Positions 1,356 through 8,612 of a stretch of 64,000 bases of DNA are shown piece after piece. This DNA is from Desulfolutivibrio sulfodismutans DSM 3696 (GTDB lineage: Bacteria > Desulfobacterota > Desulfovibrionia > Desulfovibrionales > Desulfovibrionaceae): the NCBI RefSeq assembly GCF_013376455.1, contig NZ_CP045504.1, forward strand, positions 2,377,001 to 2,441,000. The letters are read 5' to 3'. Below the pieces are notes generated by a model that did no database searches, was not told the origin of the DNA, and was given only the letters and a program-made list of their open reading frames with translations. Position numbers and translations under genes: made by a program. How positions within the stretch are numbered: position 1 is the stretch's first letter; each line of letters starts with the position of its first letter.

Positions 1356-3530
1356 CTATTGGCGGCCCGTGGAACTTCCGCCCTGATAGATCGTCGGAGA
1401 TGCTGTCGACACATCCCCCTTTACGGCATCCAAGGGGGACAACGTGGCGTAATCCGCCATGAACGTACCAGCAGCACCCGCATAAAAACCAAAACCAACC
1501 TTTCCAGTACTGTACGTCGAATCCGTCACCGAATAAAGCAATGTTTCGTTCATGTAAAATTTCAAACTAGAACCTGATGCGGTGACGCGAAGCACATTCC
1601 AGTCGTTTCCTTTTATGGCAGCTGATGTCAGCCAACCAGTATAAGAATTCCATGATCCATTGTCCATTCTGGAAACATTGAAATACCCATCAGTCGTAAA
1701 TCCAAAATAATATCCAGAATTAAACAACCCATCCTCATCAAGTGGCGTCGGCGTGGCCCTTAATAATATAACATTGGCCCATTCATCCACGACACTTCTT
1801 TTCATTCTCACAGAATAGTCAAAATTCTGGAAGTTGACACTTGTATATTGAAGAAGGTTGAACTTGTTCATGACAGGAGAAGAAACCGTAGCCGCTCCCG
1901 AGGAAATGCTCCACGGGCCGTTATACTGCGTCCAGTTGCCCAGAGTGCCGGTGAACTGCTCGTTGAATCCGCCGCTCGAACCGCCGCCAACGACCGTAGG
2001 GATGTCCAGGGGCATGAGATTTACGCCGCCGCCCGAACCGCTGCCGCTCCCAGTGAAATTTACGCCCCAGACGTTGCCGGTGGTGATGGTGTCGTTGGTT
2101 GATGTGCCCGTGGTCGCCGACTTGGAGGTGAAGGTGTATCCGGCCTTGGACACGCTTATGGTGTAGTTGGAGGCCGACGGAACTTTGCTCAGGGCGTAGA
2201 TGCCCTTGGCGTCGGTGGTGTCGGTGTAGGTTCCGCCGCCGGAACGAGTGGCGGTGACTGTCGCCCCGGCAATGGGCGTGCCCGTGGAATTCGTGACCCG
2301 GCCGCTGATGATTTCGCCGGTTCCGGTCTTGTAGACATTGTAGACGCACTTGTAGACGGAATTGAAGTTGTAATACGTGGTGTCGATGGTCGGCAGATTG
2401 TACCACAAATTGTTGCTGCCCGACCATCCCATGTTCAAATGATGGTACATGGTCGAGGAATCATACCCGTAGCCGTCGCCGACAATGGCATGGCCCCCGT
2501 CCCCCGTTATGCCGAAAAGCACCGGATACCCGGCGTCCAGGTTGGGATTGACCATGGCGTTGCGATTGGCGGTCGGCAGGTTGCTATAGTTATTGAGGCC
2601 CCTCATGGCGTTACTGTAGCCGAAGGTGTTCCTGAAGGCGCTGGCGGCATACAGCGTGTCTGTTCCAGATGCGTCGGAACAATAGTCCATGTTCACGGAC
2701 ACCCCCGCGTCGGCGGTCAGGGCGCCGATGGCCTGGCGCTGGGCCGTGGTGGTGGAGGCGCCGGGGGACAGCACCATATCCGACCAGGAATAGGCCCCGC
2801 CGCTGCCGTTGCCGCCACGCAAGGCCCGGGTGGCGGCGCTGCCGCAGACGGAGATGTCAAACGAGGCCGTGCCGACCCCTGTCGTGGGATGCTGGTGAAA
2901 CCGCATGAGCTGGGCCATGGCCGTGGCCACGCAGCCGCAGACATAGTTGTTCGGGGTGTAGATGTTGTAGGTGTTCACGCCGCCTGCGGTGTCCTGGTCC
3001 CAGGTGCTTTGCACGAGGGGGGCCACCCAGACATCGGAGATGCTGGCCGTGCCGGTCTCGACAGCGTTTTTCTGGGAGGCGGCCCGGGAAAGCGTGTCCC
3101 AACGAGCCTTGGCCGCGACCCCGGCTGTGAGTGCTTCCTGTTTTTTCAACTCCTCCTGGCGCACGAAGGCCACGCGCCCGGGAACGTCCTGCGACACCAG
3201 GGCACCGAGGGGAGTTTTCGGCGACGGGTCGTACACCCCGTCCGGGGAGAAACCGATGATCGGCTCCACCTCGTCGTCCGCCGGGACGATGACGAACCCT
3301 TTGGGATTGGTAGAGACGATGTAATAGGCAGCCTGCCCGTCCGGGCCATCATAGCGCGACACGGACATGGCCGTCTTTCCCATATCCGTTTTCATGGGCC
3401 CGGCTTCGAGAGACAACCATCCGGCCACCACCTGGCTGGCCTGCTCCGGGGTTGTCGGGCTGGCCAGCAGAAGCGCTGGAAAAAGACACAGCGCCACAAA
3501 AAAACATACCGCTCCACGGCCTCTCTTCAT
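1356..3530 (-). CDS. Secreted C10-family (streptopain-like) cysteine peptidase with C-terminal beta domains
   Basis: A 724-residue exported protein. The start chosen (ATG at 3530) is preceded by GGAGGGG at 6-base spacing and gives a clean signal peptide (about 1-24, basic then hydrophobic, ending LLASP). A propeptide-like region follows, then the C10 peptidase core with catalytic Cys200 in VCGCVATAMAQ and His347 in GGHAIVGDG. Around residues 435-510 lies a carboxypeptidase-regulatory-like beta domain (ISGRVTNSTGTPIAGATV). The last ~170 residues look like a laminin-G/concanavalin-type jelly roll and are absent from the neighbouring paralogue. Lower GC in this tail suggests separate origin. Known members are papain-fold proteases; the substrate here is unknown. 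It is the downstream member of a duplicated pair. Confidence 0.88.
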   Translation of the reverse strand: MKRGRGAVCFFVALCLFPALLLASPTTPEQASQVVAGWLSLEAGPMKTDMGKTAMSVSRYDGPDGQAAYYIVSTNPKGFVIVPADDEVEPIIGFSPDGVYDPSPKTPLGALVSQDVPGRVAFVRQEELKKQEALTAGVAAKARWDTLSRAASQKNAVETGTASISDVWVAPLVQSTWDQDTAGGVNTYNIYTPNNYVCGCVATAMAQLMRFHQHPTTGVGTASFDISVCGSAATRALRGGNGSGGAYSWSDMVLSPGASTTTAQRQAIGALTADAGVSVNMDYCSDASGTDTLYAASAFRNTFGYSNAMRGLNNYSNLPTANRNAMVNPNLDAGYPVLFGITGDGGHAIVGDGYGYDSSTMYHHLNMGWSGSNNLWYNLPTIDTTYYNFNSVYKCVYNVYKTGTGEIISGRVTNSTGTPIAGATVTATRSGGGTYTDTTDAKGIYALSKVPSASNYTISVSKAGYTFTSKSATTGTSTNDTITTGNVWGVNFTGSGSGSGGGVNLMPLDIPTVVGGGSSGGFNEQFTGTLGNWTQYNGPWSISSGAATVSSPVMNKFNLLQYTSVNFQNFDYSVRMKRSVVDEWANVILLRATPTPLDEDGLFNSGYYFGFTTDGYFNVSRMDNGSWNSYTGWLTSAAIKGNDWNVLRVTASGSSLKFYMNETLLYSVTDSTYSTGKVGFGFYAGAAGTFMADYATLSPLDAVKGDVSTASPTIYQGGSSTGRQ

Positions 3531-3977
3531 CGTTAACCCCTCCATGGTTTTAAATACGCCACTCCATGCAACATATGGAAATATCAACAGAGAATCTTGC
3601 CATACTTTCAAACGCCTCCTCCGCTGTATTTGCATGCCCTTTGCAAAACAGCATCACCGGACAGCGTTGTGAAAAACGCAAGACGGCCCACAACGAACCC
3701 CTGACAAGAACGCCTACAGGCCCCTCGCCAGGCAAACCCATTGCCGGACAACAAAAAAATCCACTAAAAAACAGATGATTATTTGACGACTATCAAGAAG
3801 AGAATATCAAATATTTCAACAGGCCACATCTGTCAATGGATGTGGTGAAAAATGCGCGGCCGCAGGTGAGTGCATAGGCATTCATCCATCTGAATTTCTT
3901 GCCACCCCCTCCTTAATCTTCTCATTTTGCGTAAATCTGGCAGAATGCTGCGGCACGTTTCCATACCCCCTGCGACT
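3531..3977. other. Intergenic region upstream of the distal C10 peptidase
   Basis: About 450 bases without a convincing gene. The first ~100 bases resemble the region upstream of the second C10 gene (5852-5950), including a shared CATGGAGGGG leader, so the upstream DNA was duplicated with the gene. The middle (3760-3830) is AT-rich and contains an FNR-like box at 3783-3796. No clear sigma-70 promoter pair could be fixed. Confidence 0.6.
3783..3796. promoter_or_regulatory. FNR/Crp-like binding site (TTGAC-N4-ATCAA)
   Basis: TTGACGACTATCAA matches the FNR consensus TTGAT-N4-ATCAA at 9 of 10 positions. It lies in the AT-rich stretch about 250 bases upstream of the distal C10 peptidase start. 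A second site of the same form lies at 6658-6671. Function is inferred only. Confidence 0.35.
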
Positions 3978-4268
3978 TCACCCCGCCGCATCCCCTCCCC
4001 GGCCGGCCACGGCCGCCAGGCCCTCACGATCCAGTATCTCGACCTCCCGGCCGGTTGACCGCACCACCCCCTGTCGGGACAAACGCCCCAAAACCCGGGA
4101 AACGGCCTCGGGCGTGGCCCCCACGATCTTGGCCAACTCCCGCTGGCTGATCCCCAGGGCCACCAGGCGCCGCCCATCCCGGTGCTCTTCCCGGGCATGC
4201 AGCAAAAAACCGGCGATGCGCCCGGGCAGGCCCCTAAGCGACAGGGATTCGATCATCTCCATGACCTC
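3978..4268 (-). pseudogene. Detached 3' fragment of the Crp/Fnr regulator gene (HTH domain only)
   Basis: Positions 4002-4268 align without gaps to 5958-6224 inside the full regulator, with about 7 differences in 267 bases by eye. Homology stops sharply at ~4268, where the sensor domain would begin, and at ~4002, where the frame runs on for a few codons to a new stop. The remaining frame encodes the winged-helix region (SQRELAKIVGATPEAVSR). An ATG at 4262 follows GGGAGGTC, so a 94-residue DNA-binding-only protein could be made; it may be silent debris or an expressed competitor of the full regulator. It sits immediately downstream of the second C10 gene, marking a duplication breakpoint. Confidence 0.8.
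4002..4268. repeat. Segmental duplication of 5958-6224
   Basis: Direct repeat of 267 bases, offset 1956 bp, no indels and about 97% identity by eye. The C10 genes that flank it are visibly more diverged than this. Confidence 0.85.
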
Positions 4269-4312
4269 CCGACCTGGGCTCCGCCAGCCGTCCGCCGTCT
4301 CCCCGCTTCGCG

Positions 4313-5851
4313 TTACTCGGACAGAAGCAGCAGATTCGATCCGGCATTGTCCCCCGAACCGCTGCTGGTTCCCGTGAAATCCACGCCCCAGACGTTGCCG
4401 GTGGTGATGCTGTAGTTGGTGGACGTGGCCGTGGTCGCCTGCTGGGAGGTAAACGTGTATCCGGCTTTGGCGACATTGATGGTGTAGGTCGAGGCGGACG
4501 GAACCTTGCTCAGGGCGTAGATGCCCTTGGCGTCGGTGGTGCCGGTGTATGTTCCGCCGCCGGTGCGGGTGGCGGTGACCGTGGCCCCGGCAATGGGCGT
4601 ACCCGAAGCATTCGTGACCCGGCCGCTGATGATTTCGCCGGTTCCCGTGACATAGACATTGTAGATGCACTTGTAGACGGAATTGAAGTTGTAATACGTG
4701 GTGTCGATGGTCGGCAGATTGTACCAGAGATCGTCGCTTCCGGCCCATCCCATATTCAGGTGATGGTATAACGTGGAGGAATCATAGCCATAGCCGTCGC
4801 CGACGATGGCATGCCCCCCGTCGCCGGTGATGCCGAAAAGCACCGGATATCCGGCGTCCAGGTTGGGATTGGACATGGCGTTGCGGTTGGTTGTCGGCAG
4901 GTTGGAACCGGAATTATATCCTGCCATGGCATTACTGTAGGAGAACGTGTTCCTGAGCGCGTTCGCGGCTTTCAGCGTGTCCGTCCCTGAACTTCCGGAA
5001 GTGTAGTCCATGTTCACGGACACGCCCGCGTCGGCGGTCAGGGCCCCGATGGCCTGGCGCTGGGCCGTGGTGGTCGAGGCGTCCGGGGACAGCACCATGT
5101 CCGACCAGGAATAGTCCCCGCCGCTGCCGTCTCCGCCGCGAAGCGCCCGCGTGGTCTCGACGGAATCGATGTAAATTGTATAAGAATCCGTTCCAACCCC
5201 GGTGGCGGGGTGCTGGTGAAACCGCATGAGTTGGGCCATGGCCGTGGCTACGCAGCCGCAGACATAGTTGTTCGGGGTGTAGATGTTGTAAGTGTTCACC
5301 CCGCCAGCCGTGCTTTGACTCCAGGTGCTTTCCAGCAGCGGCTCCACCCAGACGTCGGAGATGGTGGGGACACCGCCTTTCGCCGCGCCTTCCGTGGTTG
5401 CGGCGCCCAGAAACCTGGCCCATTTTCCCTGGGCCGTGGCCCCGGACGTGCTGGCTTCCTGATTTTTCGTCGCTTCCTGGCGCACGAAGGCCACGCGCCC
5501 GGGAACGTCCTGGGACACCAACGCCCCAAGGGGATTTTTGGGAGAAGGATCATACGCCCCGTCCGGGGAGAAACCGATGATCGGCTCCACCTCGTCGTCC
5601 GCCGGGACGATGACGAATCCTTTGGGATTGGTATAAACGATGTAATAGGCGGCCTGACCGTCCGCGCCGTCATAGCGCGACACGGACATGGCCGTCTTTC
5701 CCATGTCCGTGCGCAACGGGCTGTGGTCAAGCGTCAGCCATCCGGTCACCATCTGCCTGGCCTGCTCCGGTGTTGTCGGGCTGGCCAACAGAAGCGTCGG
5801 GAAAAGACACATGGCCACAAAAACGCATACCGCTTCACGGCGCCATTTCAT
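4313..5851 (-). CDS. Secreted C10-family cysteine peptidase (shorter paralogue)
   Basis: A 512-residue paralogue of the C10 peptidase at 1356-3530. The start at 5851 mirrors that of the paralogue (GGAGGGG, 6-base spacing); an ATG directly upstream is equally in frame. Signal peptide about 1-24, peptidase core with Cys200 (VCGCVATAMAQ) and His347 (GGHAIVGDG) at identical positions, then the same carboxypeptidase-regulatory-like beta domain. The protein stops at NLLLLSE just where its sister continues into a jelly-roll domain, and the stop lies only 45 bases from the regulator-fragment junction. It may therefore have lost its tail in the rearrangement. Substrate unknown; the protein is probably secreted. 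Confidence 0.88.
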   Translation of the reverse strand: MKWRREAVCVFVAMCLFPTLLLASPTTPEQARQMVTGWLTLDHSPLRTDMGKTAMSVSRYDGADGQAAYYIVYTNPKGFVIVPADDEVEPIIGFSPDGAYDPSPKNPLGALVSQDVPGRVAFVRQEATKNQEASTSGATAQGKWARFLGAATTEGAAKGGVPTISDVWVEPLLESTWSQSTAGGVNTYNIYTPNNYVCGCVATAMAQLMRFHQHPATGVGTDSYTIYIDSVETTRALRGGDGSGGDYSWSDMVLSPDASTTTAQRQAIGALTADAGVSVNMDYTSGSSGTDTLKAANALRNTFSYSNAMAGYNSGSNLPTTNRNAMSNPNLDAGYPVLFGITGDGGHAIVGDGYGYDSSTLYHHLNMGWAGSDDLWYNLPTIDTTYYNFNSVYKCIYNVYVTGTGEIISGRVTNASGTPIAGATVTATRTGGGTYTGTTDAKGIYALSKVPSASTYTINVAKAGYTFTSQQATTATSTNYSITTGNVWGVDFTGTSSGSGDNAGSNLLLLSE

Positions 5852-5951
5852 CATCAACCCCTCCATGGTTTCAAATACGACACGGTATACATCGTATGGC
5901 AATGTCTACGGATGATCGTCGCCATACGTTCATACATCCCGCCGCGTTATC

Positions 5952-6635
5952 TCACCTGCCGGCCACGGCCGCCAGGCCCTCGCGATCCAGTATCTCGATC
6001 TCCCGGCCGGTTGACCGCACCACCCCCTGCCGGGACAAACGCCCCAAAACCCGGGACACGGCCTCGGGCGTGGCCCCCACGATCTTGGCCAACTCCCGCT
6101 GGCTGATCCCCAGGGCCACCAGACGCCGCCCGTCCCGGTGCTCTTCCCGGGCATGCAGCAAAAAACCGGCGATGCGCCCGGGCAGGCCCCTAAGCGACAG
6201 GGATTCGATCATCTCCATGGCCTCCTTGAGCCGCTCCGACACCACCCGCAAAAAATGGAACAGGATGGACGGATCGCGCCGGGCCATATCTTCCAACACC
6301 TGTCCGGAAAAAAACACCAGGCGGCTGCGGGTGAGGGTCTCGGCGTGGGCCGGAAAAAGCGCCTCCCCGAAAAGCGCCCCCAGGCAGAAGGGCTCCCCGG
6401 GCCCAAACACGTACAGCGTCTGTTCCTTGCCGTCGTCCCCCAGTTTGAAAAGCTTCACCCGGCCCGTGAGCACCAGGAAAAACCCGCGTACGGCGTCGCG
6501 CTCCGAGGCCACCCGGGTTTTCGCGGCATAGGTTTTGGCCACGGCCCCCGTGGCCAGGGCCGTGAGCTGTTCGGACGGCAGCTCCCGGAAAAAATCCAGG
6601 GACTTGAGGGTCAAAAGCAGCGATGCATCCGTCAT
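5952..6635 (-). CDS. Crp/Fnr-family transcriptional regulator
   Basis: A 227-residue regulator with an N-terminal cyclic-nucleotide-binding-type beta roll (about 15-125), a long dimer helix and a C-terminal winged helix with recognition motif ISQRELAKIVGATPEAVSRVL. There is no N-terminal cysteine cluster, so it is not a classical Fe-S FNR; the effector is unknown (haem/NO sensors and cAMP-independent members look similar). ATG 6635 is chosen because the only in-frame upstream start is a TTG at 6671. An FNR-like palindrome at 6658-6671 lies just upstream, shared with the divergent selenoprotein/iron-sulfur genes, which suggests autoregulation and control of the divergent operon. Its 3' end is duplicated at 4002-4268. 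Confidence 0.88.
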   Translation of the reverse strand: MTDASLLLTLKSLDFFRELPSEQLTALATGAVAKTYAAKTRVASERDAVRGFFLVLTGRVKLFKLGDDGKEQTLYVFGPGEPFCLGALFGEALFPAHAETLTRSRLVFFSGQVLEDMARRDPSILFHFLRVVSERLKEAMEMIESLSLRGLPGRIAGFLLHAREEHRDGRRLVALGISQRELAKIVGATPEAVSRVLGRLSRQGVVRSTGREIEILDREGLAAVAGR

Positions 6636-6657
6636 GGTCGTAAAATGCCCTCTCACG

Positions 6658-6671
6658 TTGATCCCGGTCAA
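6658..6671. promoter_or_regulatory. FNR/Crp-like operator between divergent genes
   Basis: TTGATCCCGGTCAA fits TTGAY-N4-RTCAA and is 9/10 identical to the FNR consensus. It lies 22 bases before the regulator start and about 80 bases before the selenoprotein start, in the only gap between the divergent units. This is a natural site for the adjacent Crp/Fnr protein. Confidence 0.55.
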
Positions 6672-6751
6672 TGCCTTTCCCGCCTATGGGGATAGGAAGG
6701 GGTGGCCAGCACACATCCGGACCTTATTCTTTTATGCACAGGGGATTGCCC

Positions 6752-7105
6752 ATGTCCAGACCGCACGAAAACCAGGCCCCCGGCCACGCCCCGCAGTTTT
6801 GCGACGCCCGGGAAGCGGGCGACGGCCCCATACGCATCAGCCCACGCGCCGTAAAGGAACTGGAAAGCCTTTTTCCCGGCGACGAGACCCGCCATGTCCG
6901 GGTCATCGCCACCCCCGGCTGATTCGGCCCCAAGCTCGGCCTGGTTCTGGATGAACCGGCCCATACCGACCTCACGGTCCCCCACGGCCGCTTCCGGCTG
7001 TGCATCGACGCCCTGGTGTCCCGGGACATCGGCCGGGTGGACATCGGCCTGGACGTGACGGGCCATTTCCAACTCACCAGCCAGCACTTCGGATCGGGGT
7101 GCTGA
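6752..7105 (+). CDS. IscA/HesB-like selenoprotein (in-frame UGA read as selenocysteine)
   Basis: ATG 6752 is preceded by AGGGG at suitable spacing. The frame runs 56 codons to a TGA (6920-6922) and then continues without interruption for 60 more codons to TGA 7103-7105, giving 117 residues including Sec57. The part before the TGA has the HesB start IRISPRAVKEL; the TGA lies in VIATPG-U-FGPKLGLVLDE, exactly where IscA/HesB proteins have the first metal-binding Cys (GGCSG). The protein ends with FGSGC, resembling the family's C-terminal Cys pair. A SECIS-like hairpin follows the TGA. HesB-like selenoproteins are an established family. IscA-type proteins carry iron or Fe-S clusters, which suits the iron-sulfur protein gene downstream. 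A pseudogene is the alternative, but conservation on both sides of the TGA argues against it. Gene finders will split or miss it. Confidence 0.87.
6938..6961 (+). promoter_or_regulatory. Bacterial SECIS-like hairpin
   Basis: Starts 15 bases after the UGA. GGCC (6938-6941), bulged U (6942), GGUUC (6943-6947), loop UGGAU (6948-6952), GAACC (6953-6957), GGCC (6958-6961). All nine stem pairs are Watson-Crick. The bulged U and loop guanines are the features recognised by SelB in the E. coli fdhF element. Confidence 0.75.
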
Positions 7106-7186: not shown

Positions 7187-8152
7187 GTGAAACGACGCGC
7201 CTTCTTGAAAACCCTCGGACTGGCCGCCGCAGCCACGGCCTCCGCCGCCGTGCCGGGGATGGCCGCTGAAAAACCGGTCGCCCAGGGGACGGTTTTGGCC
7301 ACCCTGTTCGACCTCTCCAAGTGTATCGGCTGCGGGGCCTGCGTCCAGGCCTGCCGCGAGGCCAACGCCGACCGCTATCCCGAGCCGAAAAAACCCTACC
7401 CGACCATGTATCCGGGCCGGGTCAAGGTGGAGGACTGGTCGGACAAGCGCGACGTGGACGACCGCCTGACCCCGTACAACTGGCTATTCATCCAGTCGGC
7501 CAGCGTGGACTACCAGGGAAAGGCCCAGGACATCCACATGCCCAGGCGCTGCATGCACTGCATAAAGCCCCCCTGCGCCAACCTGTGTCCCTGGGGCGCG
7601 GCCAGCAAGGCCCAAAACGGCTCCGTGCGCATCAACACGGACATCTGCCTGGGCGGGGCCAAGTGCAAGACCGTCTGCCCCTGGTCGGTCCCCCAGCGCC
7701 AGACCGGGGTCGGGCTCTACCTGGACCTTCTGCCATCCCTGGCCGGGAACGGGGTCATGTACAAGTGCGACCGCTGCTACGACCGCATGGCCGCAGGCGG
7801 CCTTCCGGCCTGCATCGAGGCCTGCCCCAACGAGGTCCAGAGCATCGGGCCCCGGCAGGAGATCGTGGAAAAGGCCCACGCCCTGGCCAAATCCATAGGC
7901 GGCTTCATCTACGGTGAGACGGAAAACGGCGGAACCGGCACCATCTACGTCTCCCCCGTGCCCTTCGAGCTCATCCAGGCCGCCTCGCCCCCGGGCCCCG
8001 GCCGCCCCACCCTTGCCCCCGTGACCGACGCCATGTCCTTTGAGACGTCGCTGGCGGCCGCCGCCGTGGTGGCCCCCCTCGCGGCCGTGGCCGGGGCGGT
8101 GTTGCGCGTCGCCAAACGCAATTCGGACGGAAAGGAGCACAAACATGGCTAG
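7187..8152 (+). CDS. Tat-exported 4Fe-4S dicluster protein (HybA/NrfC-like electron-transfer subunit)
   Basis: A 321-residue protein starting at GTG 7187 behind an AAGGA ribosome site. The N-terminus KRRAFLKTLG is a twin-arginine signal. Four cysteine motifs follow: CIGCGACVQAC, CMHCIKPPCANLC, a CLGGAKCKTVC variant and CDRCYDRM...CIEAC, sufficient for about four [4Fe-4S] clusters. A hydrophobic stretch near residues 285-305 would anchor the protein in the membrane on the periplasmic side. This is the pattern of electron-transfer subunits of periplasmic hydrogenases and related oxidoreductases. Its stop overlaps the start of the membrane subunit by 8 bases. No catalytic subunit is adjacent, so the electron donor is unknown. 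Confidence 0.88.
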   Translation: MKRRAFLKTLGLAAAATASAAVPGMAAEKPVAQGTVLATLFDLSKCIGCGACVQACREANADRYPEPKKPYPTMYPGRVKVEDWSDKRDVDDRLTPYNWLFIQSASVDYQGKAQDIHMPRRCMHCIKPPCANLCPWGAASKAQNGSVRINTDICLGGAKCKTVCPWSVPQRQTGVGLYLDLLPSLAGNGVMYKCDRCYDRMAAGGLPACIEACPNEVQSIGPRQEIVEKAHALAKSIGGFIYGETENGGTGTIYVSPVPFELIQAASPPGPGRPTLAPVTDAMSFETSLAAAAVVAPLAAVAGAVLRVAKRNSDGKEHKHG

Positions 8153-8612
8153 TTCCCCCATCGCCGCCTGGGAAAAAAAGGCCTTCGCGGTGACGGTCTT
8201 CGGGCTGGGGCTGACCGGCGTGGCCCAGATGCCCATCTTCAGCCGCTACTATATCGCCGACATCCCGGGCTTCGCCTGGCTGGGCAATTTTGTGTTCACG
8301 CACATGCTGCATTACGCCCTGGCGGCCGTGTTCCTGTATTTCGCCTTCCGCTTCGCCGCCATCTATGTCCTGGCCTGGCGGCGCGACCATCCCCTGACCG
8401 CCTCGGGCCTCGTCCGGGCGGTGCTGTATGCGGCGCTGATCGCGACCGGCGCGGTGCGCATGATGAAAAACCTGTCCGGGGTCTACCTGGGGGAATGGAC
8501 GGTGCTGGTGGTGGACTGGACCCACCTGCTCTTCGCCATGCTCCTTCTGGGCGCGGTGCTGTGGGCCAGGGGAGGCGGCAGGCGGGGCTATACGGCCATG
8601 TCGCGGCTGTAA
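8145..8612 (+). CDS. Small cytochrome-b-like integral membrane subunit
   Basis: A 155-residue protein beginning at ATG 8145 after GGAAAGGAG, overlapping the iron-sulfur gene by 8 bases. It has four predicted membrane helices (about residues 13-30, 45-75, 88-105 and 122-142) with histidines in or near helices two and four (HMLHYAL, DWTHLLF) that could bind haem. It probably passes electrons from the exported Fe-S protein to the quinone pool. The cytochrome-b assignment rests on topology and context rather than a diagnostic motif. Confidence 0.75.
   Translation: MASSPIAAWEKKAFAVTVFGLGLTGVAQMPIFSRYYIADIPGFAWLGNFVFTHMLHYALAAVFLYFAFRFAAIYVLAWRRDHPLTASGLVRAVLYAALIATGAVRMMKNLSGVYLGEWTVLVVDWTHLLFAMLLLGAVLWARGGGRRGYTAMSRL

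Follow-up and report, generated by a model that had tools for sequence, protein, structure and literature searches.

Does the frame at 6752-7105, interrupted by an in-frame TGA, belong to a functional selenoprotein gene, and what might a selenocysteine-containing relative of IscA do beside an FNR-type regulator and a Tat-signal Fe-S protein? The frame lies in a stretch of 64,000 nucleotides that was analysed as a whole (the window; C1:2377001-2441000 of a 4.44-Mb genome). Judged from sequence comparisons, it is a functional selenoprotein gene with a probability of roughly 0.9, and the UGA at 6920-6922 almost certainly encodes selenocysteine (Sec). Three features are central to this reading.

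6752..7105, + strand: predicted HesB/IscA-like selenoprotein gene (HesB-Sec), 117 aa, U57, C-terminal ...GSGC
6920..6922, + strand: in-frame UGA, predicted to be read as selenocysteine, aligned to Cys35 of E. coli IscA
6938..6961, + strand: putative SECIS hairpin; core of stem 6943-6947/6953-6957 and loop UGGAU 6948-6952; bulged U at 6942

The TGA at 6920-6922 is the sole interruption of a frame that closes with a terminal TGA at 7103-7105 and is preceded by a Shine-Dalgarno-like AGGGG at 6740-6744 (by eye). The read-through product (excerpt: ...ATPGUFGPKLGLVLDEP...QHFGSGC) has homology on both sides of U57. NCBIfam model NF038090 (IscA_HesB_Se) matches residues 28-111 (E=1.5e-8, 34.8 bits), and BLASTP with the second Sec copy of the same genome covers residues 27-104 (E=2e-12), with U57 inside the span. 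A hidden frame across the TGA, as the preliminary description had proposed together with a search of the full product against IscA/HesB proteins, is thereby borne out. As to its expectation that annotation would truncate the product to 56 residues, the listed open reading frame ends at 6922; it comprises 83 aa from an ATG further upstream at 6671, and 56 aa if 6752 is taken as the start. The claim that the TGA replaces the first metal-ligand Cys also stands. A profile that included the genome's own paralogues (A2) matched E. coli IscA (1s98) at E=1e-5, and its conserved Cys coincides with U57 and with the Cys of TSGCSG in 1s98, residue 35 when counted along the printed alignment; Pfam PF01521 gave no match with the window protein alone. 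The UxGP motif occurs as UFGP, its Sec replacing the first ligand Cys. The three-cysteine motif C-Xn-CGC is absent from the window protein, its ligand set being reduced to U57 and C117. A single-sequence AlphaFold2 model of the protein had a mean pLDDT of 34.2, too low for use.

Missing selenocysteine machinery, or random stop codons at the site in close relatives, had been named at the outset as grounds for rejecting a selenoprotein, and neither was found. The genome encodes tRNA-Sec (selC; 84.2 bits, ARAGORN anticodon tca), SelA (602.9 bits), SelB (372.8 bits; two matches ~1.6 kb apart) and SelD (339.3 bits), and selD itself has an in-frame TGA. The genome has a further HesB locus (L001), a tandem of a Cys copy (1088-1432) and a Sec copy (1498-1818), which score 121.2 and 123.1 bits, respectively, against NF038090. 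The L001 Sec copy resembles the window gene in its UGA at the equivalent site and its identical hairpin core, while the pair differs from the window gene in lying above the NF038090 cut-off, in its Cys-rich tail and in its separate locus; the window protein is 31% identical to the Sec copy and 27% to the Cys copy. Adjacent Cys and Sec copies of HesB were also seen at 15 of the 26 loci L023-L048, and G195 has two Cys copies and one Sec copy. The smallest number of Sec/Cys changes on the best tree is 15, with 9 forced by supported branches.

The codon at the Sec site was read in 59 rows, a set made up of the window, L001, 29 of 30 family-search loci (L020-L048) and 20 regions chosen from the search listing, and thus not a random draw. 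It is TGA in 28 rows, TGC in 25, TGT in 5 and AGC in one, with TAA or TAG in none of the 59. Seven loci with TAG or TAA were considered as candidates for random stops at the site and rejected: the stop sits just 5' of the start codon in L210, L211 and L212, and the profile-matched stretch is free of TAA and TAG in L033, L035, L037 and L046. All seven have Sec (TGA) or Cys at the site; the check covers these seven of the matches with such codons. In L174 (815-1081, - strand), a HesB-like copy adjoining a Sec copy has Ser (AGC) at the site.

The 9-bp hairpin that the preliminary description had placed 15 bases past the TGA, with a bulged U and GG in the loop, is indeed present at 6938-6961, with the fold ((((.(((((.....))))))))). 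Taken by itself, its folding energy does not reach significance (z -1.70 and -0.98; 12 and 33 of 200 shuffles fold equally well). Since relatives are gapless from the UGA onward, the hairpin could be tested at codon level. The five-pair upper stem and the UGGA loop are intact in 28/28 UGA rows vs. 1/30 Cys rows (Fisher 2e-15, with rows that are not independent), and among rows coding L[AV]LDE only, the core is complete in 27/27 Sec vs. 1/20 Cys rows. Other families of the phylum gave 14/14 complete TGA rows vs. 0/4 Cys rows (18 rows read at 20 loci picked from the phylum-search listing; the pattern missed L212, L226 and L228, which were read separately). The tree set held a few repeated genes (47 TGA rows); once its rows were made distinct by 150 nt and the window excluded, the core was complete in 46/46 TGA vs. 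1/34 TGC/TGT rows, and the AGC row was incomplete. Phylogenetically independent pairs numbered 8 in favour, 0 against and 1 tie (p=0.008), on a tree with few columns and many unresolved forks. The sole Cys row with a complete core, L176 (TGT), adjoins a Sec copy; it is perhaps a recent Sec-to-Cys change in which the hairpin is a remnant.

For the stem to form, codon 65 must end in U, and GCT or GTT is found there in 27/28 Sec rows vs. 5/30 Cys rows; the background in 32 mechanically called window ORFs is 7.5% of Ala codons for GCT and 11.4% of Val codons for GTT. Pair 26-36 is C-G where an Ala codon goes with GAG and U-A where Val GTT goes with GAA, the window clade being of the U-A kind. For pair 27-35, U-A is the rule; the exceptions are L171 and L227, which have C-G and, in place of the Glu codon, one for Gly. 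Across 46 Sec rows, the combinations (pair 26-36, pair 27-35) are CG,UA in 36, UA,UA in 8, CG,CG in 1 and UA,CG in 1. Over the 28 Sec rows of alignment A3, 75.0% of cells pair, compared with 68.0% in shuffled versions (0/500 as high) and 17-41% in slid versions, and changes on both sides of a pair occupy 22 cells, compared with 8.5 after shuffling (0/500 as high), with 17 in the lower stem and 5 in the upper. Further pair types in A3 showed no excess over shuffles (332/500 as high). Of the 112 cells that the lower four pairs occupy over the 28 Sec rows, only 49 are paired; in all three same-genus members the lower stem (6938-6941/6958-6961) is complete. The bulged U, at position 23, is the middle base of a Leu or Met codon; it reads T in 58/58 rows, Sec and Cys alike, and is therefore uninformative. 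Comparison of Sec and Cys rows shows, at the level of sequence, joint selection on the UGA and the SECIS, and the covariation set provides a clean, family-specific SECIS signature. SelB acting on the hairpin at 6938-6961 (core 6943-6957) would deliver Sec-tRNA-Sec to UGA 6920-6922. As a separate observation on L171 and L227, the Glu-to-Gly change lies two codons past the loop Leu and comes with a U-to-C change across the stem, so that the RNA pair is kept and the protein residue lost.

HesB-like matches were obtained in 180 of the 199 family genomes searched. The window type was recognised in all three genomes of its own genus that were searched, at 65-69% identity. A single further genus has it (G027), at 34-36% identity and with UGA, hairpin and neighbourhood alike. 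A clade-profile search of 395 phylum genomes, a draw that does not contain G027, gave matches at 1e-8 in 126, and among the matches listed the best score outside the genus was 64.6 bits vs. 179-203 for the three own-genus genes. Tree support is 98/90 for the three same-genus rows and 89/88 for the four clade members, on long branches. With curated cut-offs of 85 bits for NF038090 and 66.35 bits for TIGR01911, the window protein falls below both (34.8 and 13.4 bits), as do the other three members (35-51.5 and 16.3-29 bits). Annotation by the tested Pfam and NCBIfam models alone would therefore leave the clade unnamed. Three of the four members have an N-terminal extension, and G027 can start shortly before the domain. 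The C-terminal end is GSGC in the same-genus members and GAGC in G027, a single terminal Cys where the paralogues of the genome have a Cys-rich tail. A tblastn search of plasmid sequences gave no match at E<=1e-5.

Divergence of this degree (31% and 27% identity to the genome's own paralogues) might be taken to mean that the gene is a decaying HesB pseudogene with a stop codon that arose by chance. We consider this barely credible, given that the UGA and an intact hairpin core are kept in 4/4 clade members and that the frame is conserved with no second internal stop. Three close pairs gave dN/dS of 0.37-0.44 on the 3' side of the UGA and 0.19-0.81 on the 5' side, values that rest on three short genes and are only moderately below 1.

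The functional selenoprotein gene thus favoured has as its neighbours a divergent regulator and two downstream genes.

5952..6671, - strand: divergent Crp/Fnr-family regulator, likely ATG start at 6635
6658..6671, no strand assigned: FNR-type palindrome TTGATCCCGGTCAA (TTGAT-N4-GTCAA) in the divergent promoter
7187..8152, + strand: HybA/HmcB-like protein with several 4Fe-4S domains, GTG start, twin-arginine MKRRAFLK by eye
8145..8612, + strand: 155-aa membrane protein, overlapping the Fe-S gene by 8 bases

The HesB-Sec and Fe-S genes lie on the same strand with an 81-base gap, and no + strand terminator was found between HesB-Sec and the downstream genes; from gene order, the two very probably share an operon. 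Because HesB-Sec is first in this apparent operon, 81 bases ahead of the next gene, its UGA could in principle be regulatory, with inefficient Sec insertion mainly tuning translation of the downstream Fe-S and cytochrome genes to selenium supply. We give this only a slim chance, as the coding sequence past the UGA is conserved to the final residue (GSGC, or GAGC in G027), and continue with a selenoprotein that is itself the functional product.

The FNR-type palindrome is present in the promoters of 4/4 clade members, the second half being ATCAA in G027, and such sites number 22 genome-wide vs. 2 for the reversed pattern. HcpR sites of Desulfovibrio are described as CRP-like TTGTGA, with TTGACC-type sites in other deltaproteobacteria (PMC545781). 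HcpR was considered for the regulator and was not assigned, because the window site, TTGAT-N4-GTCAA, is FNR-type. The window also holds a tandem segmental duplication (1356-6225) with two long - strand ORFs, secreted-peptidase-like by eye (1356-3635 and 4313-5902), that share ungapped blocks 83-86% identical at a spacing of 2321. The 3' portion of the Crp/Fnr gene region (5935-6225) recurs as a 95% copy at 3979-4269; a truncated regulator tail was thus apparently included in the duplication. A second FNR-type palindrome, TTGACGACTATCAA, lies near this tail at 3783-3796.

The Fe-S partner matches NF045715 (E=1.7e-39, 135.7 bits; cut-off 420) and NF008134 (HybA; E=8.2e-39, 133.5 bits; cut-off 263). 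It resembles HmcB/HybA-type proteins in its twin-arginine start (by eye) and 4Fe-4S domains, while scoring under both cut-offs. The 155-aa membrane protein itself had no Pfam or NCBIfam match and is cytochrome b561-like by way of a longer homologue in L069 (Ni_hydr_CYTB, 56 bits). At E<=1e-60, the Fe-S partner has matches in 112 of the 198 family genomes; the named genomes are mostly Desulfobacterota, often with the membrane protein adjacent (by eye). Regulator, HesB-Sec and Fe-S gene stand together in 4/4 clade members (the regulator by eye outside the window). Among the best 30 family loci read, a HesB gene adjoins the Fe-S partner in 4, which are the loci with the highest-scoring Fe-S proteins (637-693 bits; next 536), and at 29 loci from genome contigs none was found beside it, with 4 of the 29 contigs ending <600 bases upstream. 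A general link between HesB-Sec and the Fe-S partner was rejected on these counts: a need of the partner for HesB is not the general rule. Probably, HesB-Sec joined a pre-existing module in one lineage.

What would the protein do in this setting? The product is best described as a 117-residue A-type (IscA/HesB) protein with Sec for the first of three canonical cysteines. Most likely, from family and gene order, an iron or an Fe-S cluster would be held by U57 and the C-terminal C117, and the protein would help to load clusters into the neighbouring Tat-signal multi-4Fe-4S protein, or to preserve them, while this neighbour is still a cytoplasmic precursor; the HesB-Sec gene would be controlled by the divergent FNR-type regulator. 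Such a carrier role for the neighbouring Fe-S protein is put forward tentatively, at somewhat less than even odds: with the CGC pair of IscA reduced to one Cys, a plain cluster-carrier reading is weakened. The same two-residue ligand set led us to set only a little below it a selenol redox switch or reductase, in which a U57-C117 selenenylsulfide would sense or repair oxidative or nitrosative damage and the FNR-type site would regulate. U57 and C117 are the sole ligand-set residues left in all four clade members, the FNR-type palindrome recurs in every promoter of the clade and is enriched in the genome, and a review judges most uncharacterised selenoproteins to be probably redox proteins (PMC13188914). 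Against a switch, the A-type homology and the Fe-S partner favour clusters, and no CxxU or UxxC motif occurs in the 117-residue window protein. A more elaborate form of the carrier reading, which we regard as speculative and rather unlikely as a whole, is a selenium-dependent factor dedicated to assembling or repairing a single exported respiratory Fe-S protein: one thiolate would have been shed, the selenolate and the C-terminal Cys would hold a labile cluster, the genes of factor and client would be transcribed together under a regulator of FNR type that possibly senses NO or redox state, and maturation of the client would depend on selenium. Being tied to a single client-like Fe-S protein and a single regulator, the clade offers a concrete, testable partner.

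HesB-like selenoproteins are a kind long known, including in Desulfovibrio. Eleven were counted in one survey, with D. vulgaris and D. desulfuricans on its list (PMC1794560); the family is tabulated as TIGR01911 with the motif UxGP (PMC13188914), and a member was found in Methanococcus maripaludis by mutagenesis and 75Se labelling, its function being called not clear there (PMC11097638). Among the titles listed in searches of open-licence papers, none concerned a HesB selenoprotein next to an HmcB/HybA-type protein. The window protein shares with the NF038090/TIGR01911 proteins a Sec at the first ligand site, UxGP, the SECIS core and A-type homology over the UGA; it differs in its scores under the cut-offs, its N-terminal extension and its single terminal SGC, without the CGC or the Cys-rich tail of its own paralogues, and its gene adjoins an Fe-S protein gene rather than standing in a Cys/Sec tandem. 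What is new is a divergent clade, found in four genomes, with scores under the cut-offs and one of the two C-terminal ligand cysteines retained, whose genes are flanked by an FNR-type regulator on one side and a Tat-signal Fe-S protein on the other. The A-type carriers IscA, SufA and ErpA (E. coli IscA, PDB 1s98 and 1r94) resemble the window protein through the profile match (E=1e-5) and the alignment of U57 with Cys35. Cys35, Cys99 and Cys101 of E. coli IscA form the CXnCGCG motif; the paper that describes them cites an earlier view of Cys35 as idle, and argues, on the basis of coevolution and of the structure from T. elongatus, for a contribution of the first Cys to cluster binding (PMC5471300). 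Compared with E. coli IscA, the window protein has Sec for Cys35, and the Cys99/Cys101 pair is down to one terminal Cys.
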